Shown piece by piece: positions 2,430 to 24,453 of a DNA stretch of 24,892 nucleotides (positions within the stretch are counted from its first letter, which is position 1; each line of letters begins with the position of its first letter). This DNA comes from a virus, in IMG/VR virus record IMGVR_UViG_3300025433_000017, positions 1-24,892 of that record. One strand, given 5' to 3'. The notes under the pieces are model-generated. The model was not told where the DNA came from. It did no database searches and saw only the letters and a program-made list of their open reading frames with translations. A program made the translations under genes and the position numbers.

Positions 2430-3107
2430 TCAAAATAGTTTAAGTTGGCGTTTGTACATATCAAATCTATTTATAGCGTTTTGGAAGTATCCTATATCTA
2501 TTTCTGTAATATCAACATCAAATCCTTCCATATCAGCAGCAATCGCAATACTCATTGAACCCCCGTGGGTATCAAATATTTTCCATCCATCTTTAGCATA
2601 GTTTTGCAAAAGCCATCTATATAAATGAACTGGCTTTTGTGTTGGGTGTATGTTTTTACCTTCCTTATTCATAAATCCCTTATCCATGCCGTGACATCTT
2701 ACAAACTTTTTAATCTGCACATCGAAACTTGTCCATATTAATTCATCGTTTACAACACTTAAATTATCGCCCATCTTATCCCAAAGAATCCAGCCTCTTG
2801 TCACTGGTAAATTGTCCGTGAAATAATTACCACCGCAAACTATTTGGTTTTTGCTTACTCTAAATAATTGTTCCCAATACTCTTTCTTTGGTGGTTCGCT
2901 ATTCCACTTTTTCCCATTGTACATAATTGCAAATCCGTTGCTTTTGTTTGGCTTAGTCTCTTTGCGTAATGTATTTTTGCCAAAACTATAAGGTGGGTCA
3001 ACAATAGCAAGGTCGTAATAATTATCAGGTTTAGTTTTCATAAACTCGATATTGTCGCAGTTATAAAAACAAATCCCTCCCCTTTTTTCTTTTTTACATT
3101 CGTTCAT
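2430..3107 (-). CDS. DNA amino-methyltransferase, beta-type order
   Basis: A 225-residue AdoMet-dependent methyltransferase predicted to modify N6 of adenine or N4 of cytosine in DNA. DPPY at residues 37-40 is the catalytic motif IV and precedes the AdoMet-binding motif DTHGGSMS at 179-186, the order of the beta class. HPTQKP (around 154-159) is a family hallmark. Motif I is slightly unusual, with THGGS in place of the common FxGSG. It is clearly related to the gene at 4363-4995 (shared LFRVSKNQ, GGNYF and HPTQKP). No partner endonuclease is seen. An anti-restriction role is inferred. Confidence 0.9.
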   Translation of the reverse strand: MNECKKEKRGGICFYNCDNIEFMKTKPDNYYDLAIVDPPYSFGKNTLRKETKPNKSNGFAIMYNGKKWNSEPPKKEYWEQLFRVSKNQIVCGGNYFTDNLPVTRGWILWDKMGDNLSVVNDELIWTSFDVQIKKFVRCHGMDKGFMNKEGKNIHPTQKPVHLYRWLLQNYAKDGWKIFDTHGGSMSIAIAADMEGFDVDITEIDIGYFQNAINRFDMYKRQLKLF

Positions 3108-3178
3108 TTAATCAATATTAGTGGTTAATAATCGCACCAGTCCTTTCGACTTTCATTTTTGTTCCCAGCCTTCAAAAA

Positions 3179-3319
3179 TTAAAATTCTTCATCTTCATTG
3201 CAATCGCAACAACACTCTTCCTCAAACATAGCTAAGCAAGAAGCACAATAATAAATCGAATACATAGCAGATATATAATCTTCATCCTCAAAATAAATAT
3301 CATTTTTACACTCTTCCAT
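3179..3319 (-). CDS. small acidic, cysteine-rich protein
   Basis: A 46-residue frame from ATG at 3319. It is very acidic and contains Cys4, Cys25, Cys28 and a CCCDC cluster near the C-terminus, ending in NEDEEF. The CxxC followed by CCxC suggests metal binding. It fills most of the space between two methyltransferase genes, in the same orientation. Short length and absence of a recognised family keep confidence modest. Confidence 0.45.
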   Translation of the reverse strand: MEECKNDIYFEDEDYISAMYSIYYCASCLAMFEEECCCDCNEDEEF

Positions 3320-3349
3320 AATTTTAATTTTTAAATTCTTACACAAAAA

Positions 3350-3381
3350 CTAAACTGCGTTTAGACGCAACGTTGTAAGTA
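3350..3381. repeat. attC-like half site D
   Basis: A small hairpin (TGCGT, loop TTAG, ACGCA at 3356-3369; alternatively CTAAAC/GTTTAG) is followed by GTTGTAAGTA at 3372-3381. That box is the exact reverse complement of TACTTACAAC at 3975-3984 on the other side of the 184-aa methyltransferase, so the gene is bounded by 10-bp inverted boxes. No full second arm as in sites A, B and E is visible. Confidence 0.4.
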
Positions 3382-3387
3382 ATACTA

Positions 3388-3942
3388 CTATATCCATTCT
3401 ATTGTAGGTTTTCCGCAGTAGCCTTTTTCCCATACATACCAAGCATAGGCTATCATTCCAGAGTTTTTCATTTTTACCCCATCTTTATATAATGAAACTC
3501 TTTTACTAAATTGGTAAACGGTTTTTAATGGAAATTCTTTATCCTCAAACATAGTTCTTCTTTTCTCGCTTTCTAAAAAAACGGTTTTTAAGAACATTGC
3601 TATTTTGCCATTACTTTTTTTCTTTGCTTCATTTACAAATTCAAGCGCATATTTAAAAGGTGGGTTTGTAACTATATTATCGGCTACATATTCAGCATCA
3701 AAAAAGTTTTCTACTATTCCATAATCTCGGTCTATTAAATCACTACTTCTTACTTTAAACCCTTTTTTTAAAAAGACTTCACTTATAGCGCCATCACCAC
3801 AGGCACATTCCCAAACATTCCCATTAAAAACCTCACGTTTCAATAGTTCATCTACTGCATAACTTGGTGTAGGGTAAAAATCATCCTTTTCCCTTTCGCC
3901 ATTGCTTCGGCTACTGCCTACTATACTTAATGCTTTTGTCAT
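3388..3942 (-). CDS. N6-adenine-type DNA methyltransferase with NPPF motif
   Basis: A 184-residue protein. YPTP at residues 23-26 is followed by AdoMet motif ECACGDGAIS (45-54) and catalytic NPPF (93-96), the order typical of gamma-like N6-adenine methyltransferases in phages. There is no visible target-recognition domain or endonuclease, so it is probably a stand-alone modification enzyme. The gene is bounded on both sides by a 10-bp inverted box (3372-3381 and 3975-3984), as a mobile cassette would be. It is not closely similar to the two DPPY enzymes next to it. Confidence 0.85.
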   Translation of the reverse strand: MTKALSIVGSSRSNGEREKDDFYPTPSYAVDELLKREVFNGNVWECACGDGAISEVFLKKGFKVRSSDLIDRDYGIVENFFDAEYVADNIVTNPPFKYALEFVNEAKKKSNGKIAMFLKTVFLESEKRRTMFEDKEFPLKTVYQFSKRVSLYKDGVKMKNSGMIAYAWYVWEKGYCGKPTIEWI

Positions 3943-3974
3943 ATTTATTTAGTTTTGTTATTAATTTACCGTAC

Positions 3975-4034
3975 TACTTACAACAACGTATAAAGTGCAT
4001 TGAAAAAACGCACCTTATACAATTCGTTAGGCAC
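3975..4034. repeat. attC-like site B
   Basis: On the plus strand: outer box TACTTACAAC (3975-3984), 3-nt spacer AAC, stem arm GTATAAAGTGC (3988-3998), 11-nt loop, arm GCACCTTATAC (4010-4020), 5-nt spacer AATTC, outer box GTTAGGCAC (4026-4034). The stem pairs at 10 of 11 positions with one A·C mismatch. GTTAGGC fits the integron R' consensus GTTRRRY. The unequal 3/5-nt spacers match site A. An ordinary terminator would not explain the outer boxes pairing across the neighbouring gene. Confidence 0.55.
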
Positions 4035-4036
4035 AA

Positions 4037-4279
4037 TCAAAGGCTTTTAATATAATGGTCTGCCATGCCCTCAGGTACTGGCGAAGCTATTCCGTTATGT
4101 TGATTGTTCCAACGGATAAAAGCCTTTAACTGTTCGCTTTGCGGCATAACATCGTGCATAATTAATGTTTTACCTGTCATCAGTTTAAACATCTCTGCCT
4201 GTAATTCTTTTATCTGTTTTTGCAATGGTTTAATGTACTTGTCATCAATCATTTGCTCTGTCACATTTTCGTTATACAT
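4037..4279 (-). CDS. hypothetical coiled-coil protein, 80 aa
   Basis: ATG at 4279, 80 residues. Residues 5-35 are charged and heptad-like (IDDKYIKPLQKQIKELQAEM), suggesting a short coiled coil. The second half contains FIRWNNQHNG and a Pro/Gly-rich linker. No known family recognised. It lies between attC-like site B and half site C and is probably one cassette of the array. Confidence 0.5.
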   Translation of the reverse strand: MYNENVTEQMIDDKYIKPLQKQIKELQAEMFKLMTGKTLIMHDVMPQSEQLKAFIRWNNQHNGIASPVPEGMADHYIKSL

Positions 4280-4326
4280 ATCTATAATTTTAAGTTAATA
4301 TTTTCAAATCCGGTGAAAAACAAACC

Positions 4327-4351
4327 AACGCATACACTTAACGTTAGGCAC
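4327..4351. repeat. attC-like half site C
   Basis: ACGCATACAC, spacer TTAAC, then GTTAGGCAC at 4343-4351. This has the right-hand arm, 5-nt spacer and outer box of sites A and B, but no matching left arm is found upstream. The outer box is the reverse complement of GTGCCTAAC at 5015-5023 across the 210-aa methyltransferase. It may be a site that lost its left half. Confidence 0.4.
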
Positions 4352-4362
4352 AATAAAAAATA

Positions 4363-4995
4363 CTACCATAGTGCTTTCTGCATCGTTTGTTCTTTAAATC
4401 GCTTACAAGCTGCATCGTAGTAATCCTTATCAATTTCATATCCTATTAAGTTTCGTTTCATATAATGACAGGCTATGGCTATGCTTCCGCTTCCTAAGTG
4501 AGTATCTAAAATCAAATCGCCCTCGCTTGTGTATCTGTCTAAAATCCACCTATAAAGTGCTATCGGTTTTTGTGTTGGGTGTATTTTGTTTTGTCCTGTT
4601 TCGTGTTTACACGCACTACCACACCAATTAACACGCTTTATTCTCATAGGTTTATCAAAAGAACCCCAACACATTTCACCATCAGCAAAATCACTTTCGC
4701 CATTATTTTTATCCCAAACTATCCAAAACCTAGAATTAGGTAAGTCAAAATAATTACCACCCCAAATTAATTGATTTTTAGAAACCCTAAACAACTCTTT
4801 AAAATATGCTTCACTAGGCACTTCATTGTCCCAATCTTTTTCTTTGCTTTTTAGTTTCTTTTTTGCGTTTCCTAAAGTCATCTTAGTAACGTCTATTCCG
4901 TAAGGTGGGTCTACTATTGCTACATCAAAATGATTATCCGCATAGCCTTTTAACGCTTGCAAGCTATCTCCGTGTATTAAGTTTATTCCTTCCAT
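4363..4995 (-). CDS. DNA amino-methyltransferase, beta-type order
   Basis: A 210-residue AdoMet-dependent enzyme for N6-adenine or N4-cytosine methylation. Catalytic DPPYG sits at residues 29-33 and the AdoMet motif DTHLGSGS at 164-171, with IHPTQKP at 138-144. It is a paralogue of the gene at 2430-3107 but has a more canonical motif I. ATG at 4995. The gene is enclosed by inverted boxes GTTAGGCAC (4343) and GTGCCTAAC (5015), as expected of a mobile cassette. No endonuclease partner is present. Confidence 0.92.
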   Translation of the reverse strand: MEGINLIHGDSLQALKGYADNHFDVAIVDPPYGIDVTKMTLGNAKKKLKSKEKDWDNEVPSEAYFKELFRVSKNQLIWGGNYFDLPNSRFWIVWDKNNGESDFADGEMCWGSFDKPMRIKRVNWCGSACKHETGQNKIHPTQKPIALYRWILDRYTSEGDLILDTHLGSGSIAIACHYMKRNLIGYEIDKDYYDAACKRFKEQTMQKALW

Positions 4996-14457: not shown

Positions 14458-14529
14458 TAGCGGGAAGGGGATTCGAACCCCCGACCTGCAGGTTATGAGT
14501 CTGCCGAGCTACCACTGCTCTACCCCACA
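14458..14529 (-). tRNA. tRNA with CAT anticodon (Met or lysidine-Ile)
   Basis: A 72-nt cloverleaf: D arm GAGC-AGTGGTA-GCTC, anticodon loop CTCATAA, T arm GGGGG-TTCGAAT-CCCCT, discriminator A, no encoded CCA. Acceptor pairs 2-7 form (two of them G·T), but the first pair is T·T. The anticodon stem closes with an A·C mismatch (GCAGA/CCTGC). The stem lacks the three G-C pairs of initiators, so an elongator Met or an Ile2 (CAT) identity is likelier. It sits directly upstream of recT. Confidence 0.85.
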
Positions 14530-19401: not shown

Positions 19402-19623
19402 TTATATTTTCCTCCCAGTTTTCAAAACCTTTTTATCTTCCTCTATTTCTGTTCTGTCAAATCCGAATTTACGTAATACTTTGGGGTCCGTAACCCTATT
19501 CATTAAAGTAATTACGGCGGCCTCCCGGCTGCGTAATGCAATAACTTTATCCTTCGTTTCCTGTGCAATAGGTTCACCTAAAACAAGTTTTTCCAGCACG
19601 CCAATTTTTAAAGCATCCATCAT
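19402..19623 (-). pseudogene. duplicated C-terminal fragment of the 164-aa tail-region gene
   Basis: A 73-codon frame beginning MMDALKIGVLEKL that matches the C-terminal half of the gene at 23959-24453 with about 80% residue identity (shared LRSREAAVI, LRKFGFDRTEIEE). The N-terminal ~95 residues of the parent are missing. The frame itself is open and starts with ATG, so it may still be translated. It is part of a 195-bp duplication that broke the holin gene upstream. Confidence 0.75.
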
Positions 19624-19632
19624 TTCGGTTTC
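19438..19632. repeat. copy 1 of a 195-bp direct duplication
   Basis: This stretch aligns without gaps to 23986-24180, differing at about 27 of 195 positions (roughly 86% identical). Both copies end at the same base of CATTTCGGTTTC, after which homology stops sharply. Same orientation, 4.5 kb apart, bracketing the DGR. Confidence 0.85.
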
Positions 19633-19810
19633 TATCTGCCAGATAACCGTAAATTATATCCACCAAAAAGAAAAACAATACCAGATGCGCTATATTTTTC
19701 AACGGACTGAAATAGCCTAATACACTTAAAAATACAGCTGTAAAAAACTCCCAAATTTTCGTACTTATAAATCCTTCTATTCTGTGCATTACATTTATTT
19801 TATAGTCCAT
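19574..19810 (-). pseudogene. truncated phage holin gene
   Basis: Residues 1-60 (TKIWEFFTAVFLSVLGYFSP, then HLVLFFFLVDIIYGYLADR) resemble the two N-terminal membrane segments of the holin family common in Bacteroidota phages. After DR the frame enters the 195-bp duplicated sequence out of frame (RNDGCFKNWRAG) and stops. The normal C-terminal half, with a basic cytoplasmic tail and further membrane segments, is missing. Probably inactive unless the short form retains a role. Confidence 0.65.
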
Positions 19811-20721: not shown

Positions 20722-21024
20722 TTATTTAAATTCAAAATGTTCACCTTCTTTAACAATTGTACAAATAAAAGGGAAATCTTCCTTTTTCACTTGCCTTATC
20801 ATATTAATTAACACGTCACTACCCGTAAAAACAACCCTCTTTTCACCTCCCAGTTGAATTTGAATACAAAGGCATTTGCCTGACTTATTTTTCTGAAACT
20901 TACTATCGTCAATCCTGTGGTTTAATACGGTAATTTCCCGGTTTAAAACTTTTGTTATTTTAACCTTTTCTCCAACCATTGTATCAGAAGGAGGCTTTAC
21001 ACCTAAGTCGCTAAATTTTTTCAT
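20722..21024 (-). CDS. putative DGR accessory protein, 100 aa
   Basis: The ATG at 21024 overlaps the reverse transcriptase stop (ATGA), so the two are translationally coupled. The protein starts MKKFSDLGVKPPSD and consists mostly of beta strands (EKVKITKVLNREITVLNHRI, CLCIQIQLGGEKRVVFTG) with a basic surface, which suggests an OB-like nucleic-acid-binding fold. It has none of the four-helix character of Avd. A role in template-repeat RNA handling is inferred from position. I recall similar proteins beside DGR reverse transcriptases of Bacteroidota but cannot verify it here. Confidence 0.7.
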   Translation of the reverse strand: MKKFSDLGVKPPSDTMVGEKVKITKVLNREITVLNHRIDDSKFQKNKSGKCLCIQIQLGGEKRVVFTGSDVLINMIRQVKKEDFPFICTIVKEGEHFEFK

Positions 21025-21971
21025 GCGCATAGTTTATTTAACAGGTTTATACTATTACAATGTTTGCACCAACCCCAGTAAGCGGCAAACGAGTAATTGT
21101 TTTCCGGTTTTTTAAAAGATTTTGCAAGTCTCTTTTTTATCGTTTTGCGCAATAATACATGGGTGTGGTAAAAAACATATCCTAAAAAATCTATACCACG
21201 GGCAGAAACTGGAAATATCTGGTAGTTACTTTTTATCTCGATATTCAAATTATCTGTTAAAAAGGTTTTAATTTCTGCAAAAATCGCCCATAATTCGGCT
21301 TTCGAACCCGACAGAACTACCATATCATCGGCATAACGGTAGTAAAATTTAACTTGCAACACTTCTTTTATGTGGTGGTCTAAATAAGCCATGTATAAAT
21401 TCGCAAAATACTGGCTCAGGTAATTACCAATAGGTACACCATTTGCACTGTCTATTATTTTGTCGAGCAATTCCAGTAAATCAGCATCTTTTATTTTCTT
21501 TCGTATTATTCTCTTTAGTATTACATGGTCTATTGTTGGGTAAAACTTTCTAATATCTAACTTCAAACAATATTGCGTGCCATTCAAATCTTTTAAATCG
21601 TGCTTTATTTTCTTCACCGCTGCGTGTATCCCTTTTCCTTTTATGCAACTGTATGTATCGGCAGTAAAAATACTCACCCAAATAGGTTCTAAAAGGTTCA
21701 TTACTGCATGGTGAACAATTCTGTCGGGGAAATATGGCAACTGATAAATTTCGCGCTCTTTTGGCTCATAAACTTTAAACACATTATATCGTGAAGTTTT
21801 AAAAGTTTTCTCCTTTAAAATTTTATTCAGTTCAATAATATTAGCTTCACGGTTTTTGTCGTGTATAATTACACCATAGCTTTGCCGTTTGCCCTTACGG
21901 GCTTTCTCGTCAACTAACTTTAAGTTTTCGATGCTGATTATCTGTTCATATAAATTACCAATTCTTTTCAT
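21021..21971 (-). CDS. DGR reverse transcriptase
   Basis: A 316-residue protein from ATG at 21971. A TTG start 15 codons earlier is also open. Motifs: KLDIRKFYPTID (137-148), IGNYLSQ (181-187, the DGR-type replacement of QGxxxSP), YADD catalytic aspartates (213-216), GIDFLGY in the thumb-side region. It makes error-prone cDNA from the template repeat by misreading adenines. It lies 106 nt downstream of the template repeat and is followed by the putative accessory gene. The length is normal for DGR enzymes. Confidence 0.97.
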   Translation of the reverse strand: MKRIGNLYEQIISIENLKLVDEKARKGKRQSYGVIIHDKNREANIIELNKILKEKTFKTSRYNVFKVYEPKEREIYQLPYFPDRIVHHAVMNLLEPIWVSIFTADTYSCIKGKGIHAAVKKIKHDLKDLNGTQYCLKLDIRKFYPTIDHVILKRIIRKKIKDADLLELLDKIIDSANGVPIGNYLSQYFANLYMAYLDHHIKEVLQVKFYYRYADDMVVLSGSKAELWAIFAEIKTFLTDNLNIEIKSNYQIFPVSARGIDFLGYVFYHTHVLLRKTIKKRLAKSFKKPENNYSFAAYWGWCKHCNSINLLNKLCA

Positions 21972-22077
21972 TATTTTTCTTTGCTTTATATAAGGAATCT
22001 TCCTTTGCAGTACCAATACCTTTTATAATAAGTTTGTTTTTTGCCAAGAGGCAGGGTTTTTGTTCCCGTAAAAATTT

Positions 22078-22192
22078 AAAGCATAGCTGAGACCTGATAT
22101 TCGCATTCGCATTCGAAGGAGTGTTATTCGAGTTCGAATAAACGAAACCTGCATTCGCACTATTATTCGCGTTACCACTAACCAGGAGCGTT
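22078..22192 (-). repeat. DGR template repeat (TR)
   Basis: 115 nt aligned without gaps to the variable repeat at 22260-22374. The coding (minus) strand has 31 adenines. Twenty of these differ in the VR, and all 84 non-adenine positions are identical. Its implied peptide contains ten Asn (AAC/AAT) codons, the usual design for broad diversification. It lies between the VP gene and the RT and is oriented like both. No GC hairpin follows it, unlike the VR. Confidence 0.97.
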
Positions 22193-22243
22193 GGAAACAA
22201 ACAACCTAAGTATTTCAATTAACGTTTTTTTTATTAGCCTCCG

Positions 22244-22256
22244 GGGGCTACGCCCC
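22244..22256 (-). promoter_or_regulatory. DGR target-site hairpin at the end of the variable protein gene
   Basis: On the coding strand GGGGC-GTA-GCCCC forms a 5-bp GC stem with a 3-nt loop. It begins 3 nt past the last base of the VR and includes the TAG stop codon. It is followed by A residues, not T residues, so it is not a terminator. A hairpin/cruciform just downstream of VR promotes retrohoming in the Bordetella phage DGR. Position and exclusivity to the VR side support the same role here. Confidence 0.7.
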
Positions 22257-23576
22257 AAGAAAGCAAAGCCGAGACCCGATATACGCAGCCGCAGTCGAAG
22301 GAGCGTAATACGAGCGCGAACAAACGAAACCCGCAACCGCACTATAAATCGCGTAACCACCAACCAGGAGCGTTCTAAGGCTCTCTCCACTAGCTGGTGA
22401 ATTTGTATAGAAATAGTCGCAATAATATGTTGCACTGTCTCCGGTGGCTACCTTCGGTAAAAATTCGCCACCAGCCCCGAATAGAGCTTCACTCATATAA
22501 CCATTGGCACGCGATAATAATCCTTTGTTTTCGTAATTGGTATAATTGCTGTCGTTCCAATCGGAAGGATTATCAGCAGTCCACACCTGACTTTTATTTC
22601 CATCGGCAACGGCTTGTATTTTTATATTAATACCGTCAATATTTTTCCATATATGCCCAAACGGCATCTCTATTCCACGATACCTGTTTACCTTAAATGT
22701 TCTATCAACTCCAACACCGCCAAAATCGGCAATAACAGTATCCACTTCGCCCGAATTGTTACCAAGACTGTTAGATACGCCACAATTAACAAATGGGTAG
22801 TAACCCGAAAAATTACCCCATTCGGTTGGATTGGCAGTTGTAACACCATTACCCAAACCACCTTGCTTGTAGCCCTCTGCTGTTAATGTTGCATTAACAG
22901 GTGATTGGCTATTTCTGTTGGCAAACTCAACAATATACAGCCAAAATAGAGCTTTATGGGCATTATAGAAATTCATTTGCCAGCCCGTACCGTTATTACG
23001 TGCATAAGTTCTATAATTTGTTCTTGAAATAGCAGTGGCGGGTTTTCCCAGTAACGAGTTTGCCGCAGCATCCAACGCAGCATTGTTGTTGCCACCTCTG
23101 TAATCGGCAGAAGTATTAACTACACTTGACAACTTGCTATTGGTTCTATTTAAGGATGCCTCGTAAGCTGAAATATACATTTTAGGAATTTGAATAAACC
23201 CTGCAATTGCTTTTACAGAAAATTTTACAGAACGAGTATTCCCATTGCTTTCAAATTTAGCATAGTATTTGGGTAGTTCAACCATTACGTTTCCATCTGT
23301 GCCATCTAATACGCTTGCTGTGTCATCTGCTTTTTTAGTCCAATCATTACCATTAAGGTAGTAATTCACCGTACCATTGGCATTAAGCAAACAACCTTTA
23401 ATCGCAGATTGAATTGGCAACGAGGCGTGTAAATCCATTGCAACCGTAGAACTGGCAATTCTGGTAACGCTTGGTGATGATTCAGTAATGTCCCACTCTG
23501 CACCATACCATTGGTTCAACAATGACCCTAGTCGAACCCTTTGTGGAATTCTTCTATGATTAATTAAATTTCTCAT
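22248..23576 (-). CDS. DGR-diversified receptor-binding protein (variable protein)
   Basis: A 442-residue protein with ATG at 23576. The N-terminal ~130 residues (LGSLLNQWYGAEWDITESSP) look like a trimeric phage-attachment domain. The C-terminal ~300 residues are rich in Trp, Asn and Gly (GWQMNFYNAHKALFWLYIVE, YRGIEMPFGHIWKNIDG) and end in GSRLCFLGA, typical of C-type-lectin/FGE-like DGR target proteins. Residues 402-439 are encoded by the VR. They would form the ligand-binding surface, so diversification likely alters phage host range. It lies next to LamG and other adhesion genes, so it is probably a tail-tip or fibre adhesin. Confidence 0.92.
   Translation of the reverse strand: MRNLINHRRIPQRVRLGSLLNQWYGAEWDITESSPSVTRIASSTVAMDLHASLPIQSAIKGCLLNANGTVNYYLNGNDWTKKADDTASVLDGTDGNVMVELPKYYAKFESNGNTRSVKFSVKAIAGFIQIPKMYISAYEASLNRTNSKLSSVVNTSADYRGGNNNAALDAAANSLLGKPATAISRTNYRTYARNNGTGWQMNFYNAHKALFWLYIVEFANRNSQSPVNATLTAEGYKQGGLGNGVTTANPTEWGNFSGYYPFVNCGVSNSLGNNSGEVDTVIADFGGVGVDRTFKVNRYRGIEMPFGHIWKNIDGINIKIQAVADGNKSQVWTADNPSDWNDSNYTNYENKGLLSRANGYMSEALFGAGGEFLPKVATGDSATYYCDYFYTNSPASGESLRTLLVGGYAIYSAVAGFVCSRSYYAPSTAAAYIGSRLCFLGA
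22260..22374 (-). repeat. DGR variable repeat (VR)
   Basis: The 115-nt 3' segment of the 442-aa gene. Compared with the TR it shows A to G nine times, A to T eight times and A to C three times in the coding strand. This changes 15 amino acids, including all ten template Asn codons (to Tyr five times and to Ile, Val, Arg, Thr, Ala once each), plus two silent changes. No indels and no non-adenine changes occur. Confidence 0.97.
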
Positions 23577-23958: not shown

Positions 23959-24453
23959 TTAAATTTCCAGCTTCAATAAGTGATTTTCCTCTATTTCTGT
24001 TCTGTCGAATCCGAATTTACGCAATGCCTTTGGGTCTGAAACGCTATTCATTAAACGAATTACAGCGGCTTCTCTGCTGCGTAATGCAAGCAGTTTGTCT
24101 TTTGTTTCTTGTGCAACTGGCTCACCTAAAGCAAGTTTTTCAAGTACGCCAATTTTTAAAGCATCCATCATTTCGGTTTCAATAATCTGCTCAAACTCTT
24201 TCAGCTTTTTTGTGCGTTCCGTTTCAAGGTCAATAACCAAATCAACAACAGGCTGTGTGAATACTTTATTTTTTTCGTCAAAAAAGAACTCTCCTTTTTT
24301 TTGCAAATCGCTATCTATTACTGGAATTTCAATTTCATAAAAACCTTCGCTTTCATGAATCACTGTTGTTTGTTCGTCAAAGTTCCCTGCCCAATGCTTA
24401 TAATACTTTGGCAATCCTCTTACTATTTTGCTGTTTATTATTTTTGCTTTCAT
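23959..24453 (-). CDS. tail-fibre-associated protein, 164 aa
   Basis: ATG at 24453. Residues 1-95 form a mixed domain (HESEGFYEIEIPVIDSDLQK, then a Lys/Glu-rich helix TERTKKLKEFEQIIETE). Residues 96-164 are helical, with ETKDKLLALRSREAAVIRLM and LRKFGFDRTEIEE. It follows the LamG adhesin by 4 nt, a usual place for fibre assembly chaperones, but that role is inferred. Its C-terminal half is duplicated at 19402-19623. Confidence 0.6.
   Translation of the reverse strand: MKAKIINSKIVRGLPKYYKHWAGNFDEQTTVIHESEGFYEIEIPVIDSDLQKKGEFFFDEKNKVFTQPVVDLVIDLETERTKKLKEFEQIIETEMMDALKIGVLEKLALGEPVAQETKDKLLALRSREAAVIRLMNSVSDPKALRKFGFDRTEIEENHLLKLEI
23986..24180. repeat. copy 2 (parent) of the 195-bp direct duplication
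   Basis: It lies inside the intact 164-aa gene and aligns gap-free to 19438-19632 at roughly 86% identity. Being part of a complete gene, this copy is taken as the parent, although the divergence means the other may have come from a related phage. Confidence 0.85.

Follow-up and report, generated by a model that had tools for sequence, protein, structure and literature searches.

A phage diversity-generating retroelement without a recognizable avd encodes a predicted OB-fold protein as candidate accessory factor of its reverse transcriptase

We describe a diversity-generating retroelement (DGR) in IMG/VR virus record IMGVR_UViG_3300025433_000017 (positions 1-24,892, a 24.9-kb linear fragment, here called the window), in which no avd gene is recognized and in which the gene for the reverse transcriptase (RT) is overlapped at its 3' end by that of a small protein, P0003. 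We propose that P0003 assists the RT as its accessory protein, as Avd does elsewhere. The explanation as a whole, that of an avd-less phage DGR with a structured RNA of the RT-17 type in the spacer between template repeat (TR) and RT, a variable repeat (VR) that is rewritten and P0003 in Avd's role, is one that we regard as probable. That the element is a DGR, as the initial annotation had it, is nearly certain, because the family of the RT, TR/VR differences at adenines only, a C-type lectin target and a hairpin past VR all agree. The parts of the cassette are as follows:

20722-21030, minus strand: P0003, DGR-associated protein with a predicted OB fold, 102 aa, overlapping the 3' end of the RT gene
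21021-21971, minus strand: DGR-type RT, with an ATG at 21971; the reading frame is open from a TTG at 22016
21977-22058, minus strand: TR-RT spacer RNA, Rfam RF03020 (RT-17), 43.9 bits against a gathering threshold of 40.4
22078-22192, minus strand: TR, 115 nt with 31 adenines
22244-22256, minus strand: GC hairpin GGGGC-GTA-GCCCC, beginning 4 nt past VR; candidate IMH-associated element
22248-23576, minus strand: target gene, 442 aa, tail protein with a predicted C-terminal C-type lectin domain that contains VR
22260-22374, minus strand: VR, 115 nt, at the 3' end of the target gene

The RT carries the motifs IGNYLSQ and YADD, from which it had initially been recognized as DGR-type, and this assignment is confirmed by matches to PF00078 (1.3e-23) and to PHROG 1423 (reverse transcriptase; 9e-118). 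Its closest PDB chain is 8ub7, 'Reverse transcriptase' (E = 3e-51), which we take to be the BPP-1 DGR RT. TR and VR lie at an offset of 182 nt and align without gaps over their full 115 nt. They differ at 20 positions, each of them an adenine of TR (20 of 31), and at none of the other 84 bases, so that our recount reproduces exactly what the initial annotation had reported; the changes from TR to VR comprise nine A>G, eight A>T and three A>C, and the probability that all 20 differences hit adenines by chance is 7e-15. No third copy of TR or second VR was found in the window; even the best remaining position has 47 mismatches at bases other than A. The hairpin past VR (GGGGCGTAGCCCC) is strong; hairpins of comparable strength occur in 12 of 72 VR flanks of relatives, as against 1% of shuffles, and many relatives have only a weak one. 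Comparison of TR/VR pairs in related phages, proposed in the initial annotation as a check, shows A-biased pairs beside RT in most of 77 related loci, placed just upstream of the RT gene and often with two VRs. The element had been called complete and placed at 21021-22374. Completeness holds for the core, but the cassette is without avd and reaches on to 20722; likewise, those limits enclose RT, TR and VR but not the hairpin, the gene at 20722-21030 or the greater part of the target gene.

The target gene product matches PHROG 5302 'tail protein' (E = 1e-118) and is 43% identical to the tail protein of cr55_1. An AlphaFold (AF2) model built on an alignment of 14 relatives (mean pLDDT 74, with low confidence in the VR stretch) finds its best match in the solved structure of the DGR variable protein TaqVP (VIA Z 17.4 over 253 residues, again with the VR stretch of low confidence), followed by formylglycine-generating enzymes (Z 8.5) and Mtd (Z 5.5), proteins that have the C-type lectin fold in common. 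The model thus suggests that the target bears a C-type lectin fold at its C terminus, with VR at the end of it. The terms used initially, a tail adhesin whose variation diversifies receptor binding, draw on PHROG 5302 and on this predicted fold, and both would fit such a function. A classification of the target (P0001) as a tentaclin was considered and rejected; its VR and lectin fold sit C-terminally, unlike in tentaclins, where the lectin domain is N-terminal and is followed by Ig domains (PMC10743442).

Nine loci, counting the window, have a mapped TR, and in every one of them RT-17 lies 10-36 nt after it. In an alignment of 32 spacers (A5), which shows two covarying hairpins, compensatory changes are present in 11 of 11 base pairs, 94% of the cells are paired, and covariation reaches 0.587, whereas the maximum in slid controls is 0.146. 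In BPP-1 the spacer brings in RT-Avd and serves to prime the synthesis of cDNA (PMC12875486). Because RT-17 follows TR in relatives and covaries, and because the BPP-1 spacer recruits RT-Avd, RT-17 probably makes up the 3' portion of the template RNA in this group of DGRs; an RNA so far named merely for its association with RTs would in this way gain a role. RT-14 probably likewise represents the 3' half of template RNAs in DGRs. A match to RT-17, and weakly to RT-14, also coincides with the TR-RT spacer in loci L004, L010, L011, L013, L014, L052 and L056.

Two IMG/VR contigs from different datasets, L002 and L003, encode an RT identical to that of the window and permit a comparison over a short evolutionary distance. 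L003 is 99.7% identical to the window over 7481 nt. Of 22 differences, 16 fall within the 115 sites of VR and six among the 7366 other sites, a 171-fold enrichment in VR, and none falls in TR, spacer or RT. TR is the same in all three sequences and VR differs from that of the window at the same 16 sites in both contigs, the VR of L002 being identical to that of L003; the comparison therefore concerns one alternative VR haplotype, which itself has two non-adenine differences from TR. Fourteen of the 16 VR differences lie at TR adenines (P = 6e-8). Since they lie mostly at these adenines and the rest is nearly unchanged, the comparison supports the view that VR is altered by adenine mutagenesis, on a short time scale, while the rest of the genome has barely changed. 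Homing would not be constant, however, because L002 and L003 carry one identical VR in spite of their different datasets. The initial claim of recent activity is thereby strengthened by the clustering of the differences in VR and at TR adenines, evidence that is indirect and against which a VR common to two datasets has to be set.

Two other readings of the VR differences have to be considered. Recombination or an assembly effect, in place of DGR activity, could have set the VR of the window apart from that of its relatives, and L002 does contain, in the target gene upstream of VR, a mosaic block (22777-22959) that does not stem from the DGR. However, neither the adenine bias of the VR differences nor the flanks of VR in L003, with no further difference for 1.8 kb downstream or in the 130 shared bases upstream, agree with such an origin, which we find scarcely credible. 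The mosaic block itself, with 16 synonymous and 18 nonsynonymous codon changes, looks like ordinary recombination and would represent a second, non-DGR route of tail-protein variation. The element could also be decayed or dormant, the TR/VR differences being the old imprint of an element now immobile; the VR shared between two datasets and the existence of a relative that is a mere DGR remnant with a deleted RT (L174) would fit this. Yet every part of the cassette is intact, TR and VR of the window show no non-adenine difference, and it is VR that has changed among otherwise near-identical phages, so that dormancy is, to our mind, very improbable. We thus retain the reading of an element active in the recent past.

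P0003 belongs to PHROG 19665, annotated as unknown, and no credible sequence relatives were found in Pfam, NCBIfam or the PDB. Even so, 69 of 79 loci have a homolog within the cassette. Nine other genes of the window, from outside the cassette, were tested in the same way; each is found in at most 3 of 75 relatives, the seven flanking ones in none of the 75. When the search is made from the side of P0003, a DGR RT is found immediately upstream in 80 of 80 viral contigs, which correspond to 34 distinct sequences at 90% identity, and RT adjoins P0003 in 11 of 12 loci of bacterial genomes, the twelfth being a DGR remnant from which RT has been deleted. In this remnant (L174, positions 3000-4160, Dysgonomonas sp. 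216), what is left comprises two VRs, a TR and the 3'-terminal part of the P0003 homolog, and the deletion that removed RT enters P0003. Among 395 Bacteroidota genomes only two encode P0003, both adjoining a DGR RT, and in the archaeal viruses ANMV-1 and vir525 the homolog comes directly after RT. Moreover, in-frame fusions of P0003 to the C terminus of RT occur in L008 and, separately, in the group of L055, L056, L062 and L063, the two lineages standing apart on the RT tree. The order in L189 is VR, P0003, TR, RT, which places P0003 in the slot that avd occupies in BPP-1; in L007 it likewise lies between VR and TR. The distances of P0003 and RT are correlated (Mantel r 0.69, equalled in 0 of 2000 permutations). 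In the collections searched, P0003 thus appears to be linked exclusively to DGR RTs, as judged from its genomic neighbourhood.

P0003 is missing, with no evident substitute, from some relatives of the DGR RT, namely from L047 and from the crAss-like cr52_1, cr60_1, cr56_1, cr53_1 and cr6_1, in which lysis-type genes follow RT; it is therefore not universal even among avd-less DGRs. A collection scan with the P0003 sequence alone returned the two near-identical contigs and nothing else, and profiles A1 and A2 varied too much to be of use in such scans. An additional small ORF (about 100-200 aa, with motifs in common) separates RT from the P0003 homolog in L004 (6862-7236), L006, L017, L052, L064, L068, L072 and L171-L173, and similar-looking small ORFs come after RT in cr55_1, cr50_1 and Versailles. 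P0003 has not been named before, although an earlier description of it, or of a role for RT-17, may exist in the literature.

P0003 is modelled (pLDDT 92) as a small beta barrel into which a helix is inserted. Its matches by VIA-align to the external domain of RuvB-like-2 and to bacterial SSBs have Z 5-6.6, with Z 5-6 to SSBs; these values are modest, and the arrangement is a common one. Foldseek alone against the PDB returned no match with E < 0.1. The best matches among viral models (BFVD) are C-terminal domains of viral RTs, including that of the crAss-like cr7_1. An OB fold as modelled would suit binding of RNA or of ssDNA. C-terminal extensions of 90-97 aa are present on the crAss-like DGR RTs of L182 (cr7_1), L084 (cr55_1) and L085 (LMMB). 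They could not be identified as P0003 by sequence, since those of LMMB and cr7_1 gave no significant profile match and that of cr55_1 a marginal one; therefore, just the fold match of cr7_1 stands. Possibly, an OB domain is fused to crAss-like RTs too, past the reach of sequence recognition.

No match to PF22296 or PF05635 (bAvd, 23S_rRNA_IVP) was found in the 24.9-kb record. Across 50 related records, bAvd is present in five of the six that lack P0003 and in none of the 44 that have it, a split confined to one group of related RTs (L073-L077), so that, the five bAvd records being related, it possibly reflects one swap and not five. In these five records, bAvd lies upstream of TR wherever TR was mapped. 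The fold of Avd is helical, whereas P0003, which has no Pfam match, is modelled as a beta-barrel OB protein. Nonetheless, P0003 resembles the accessory proteins known in DGRs, Avd, HRDC and MSL (PMC10053308), in that it too is a small protein encoded in the cassette beside a DGR RT. In the absence of a Pfam model, P0003 would be missed by neighbourhood surveys based on Pfam or CDD (PMC10053308; PMC8934634). We lean towards the view that P0003, with the PHROG 19665 family, constitutes a second class of DGR accessory protein, structurally unrelated to Avd, which replaces it in many DGRs of Bacteroidota phages and prophages and of archaeal viruses, located in the avd slot, after RT or fused to it, and working with a template RNA of the RT-17 type. 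If so, many DGRs now counted as 'avd-less' would not be accessory-less; PMC7290462, with reference to earlier surveys, puts the share of DGRs that lack an accessory gene at about a quarter. An accessory role would also assign a function to PHROG 19665, a conserved partner with a predicted OB fold, fused to RT in two lineages and exclusive of Avd in the records examined, would make priming and mutation by avd-less DGR RTs directly testable, and P0003 cassettes could become small tools for targeted protein diversification.

P0003 could instead be an ssDNA-binding or morphogenesis gene of the phage that travels with the RT of an ordinary avd-less DGR in need of no accessory protein. OB folds are frequent among phage genes and the models of P0003 resemble SSBs, certain related DGR RTs do without P0003, and the crAss-like avd-less DGRs in PMC7290462 were described without an accessory. 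A gene that merely travels along, on the other hand, accords poorly with the linkage in all 80 contigs found from the side of P0003, with two fusions to RT and with relocation to the avd slot while still inside the cassette. Moreover, no other neighbouring gene tested is conserved, P0003 is found in viruses of both bacteria and archaea, and just two of the 395 Bacteroidota genomes have it, each time next to a DGR RT. We thus consider this alternative unlikely and favour P0003 as an accessory factor of the RT.

With P0003 as such a factor, the element would work as follows. The error-prone RT would copy a transcript of TR and the structured RT-17 spacer into cDNA and insert wrong bases opposite the adenines of the template. 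With the common 3' end and the GC hairpin beside VR as guides, this altered cDNA would take the place of VR, so that about 17 codons in the C-type lectin tip of the tail protein would be rewritten. P0003 would be the accessory factor of the RT, as Avd is in BPP-1, most likely by binding the RT together with either the template RNA or the cDNA.

The gene content of the record is that of a phage: besides genes for replication and recombination there are methyltransferases, lysis-like genes and an anti-repressor; three ORFs that match DNA methyltransferase families form one cluster (2430-4995), and a tRNA gene is located at 14458-14529. Relatives of both the RT and the target gene are found in crAss-like phages and in Bacteroides phage Versailles, those of the target gene also in Polaribacter phages, and prophage-type relatives are located in Bacteroidota. 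Given phage and prophage-type relatives of this kind, the host is likely to be a member of the Bacteroidota. A nucleotide search with the cassette gave no match among deposited phages. A direct repeat of 201 bp, part of a short gene, is present on either side of the cassette (19435-19635 and 23983-24183; 172 of 201 positions identical), as if it were the trace of a duplication or insertion.

Among known systems, the DGR of crAssphage LMMB, with an RT of lineage 3, the order TG-VR-TR-RT and no avd (PMC7290462), shares with the window the order target-VR-TR-RT, the absence of avd and a target of the tail-fibre type. The two are homologous in target (phmmer 3.7e-35) and RT (49% identity), and TR and VR of LMMB differ by 21 A-to-N changes plus two non-A. 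In contrast to the window, LMMB has no separate P0003 gene, and its RT has a C-terminal extension of 95 aa. BPP-1 (mtd-avd-TR-brt) has in common with the window a related RT, adenine mutagenesis, a C-type lectin target, a hairpin past VR and a structured TR-RT spacer; the window differs in being without Avd, in encoding a predicted OB-fold protein with the RT and in having a spacer of the RT-17 type. In ANMV-1 (PMC4372165), as in the window, a P0003 homolog comes after RT: AJP62065 (hhalign 98.5%) begins 2 nt behind it. ANMV-1 is, however, a virus of archaea, and the figure legends of that paper label small ORFs as Avd candidates by their size and charge. As a DGR, that of the window is thus a member of an avd-less type already known, and what is new in it is the accessory candidate, P0003.
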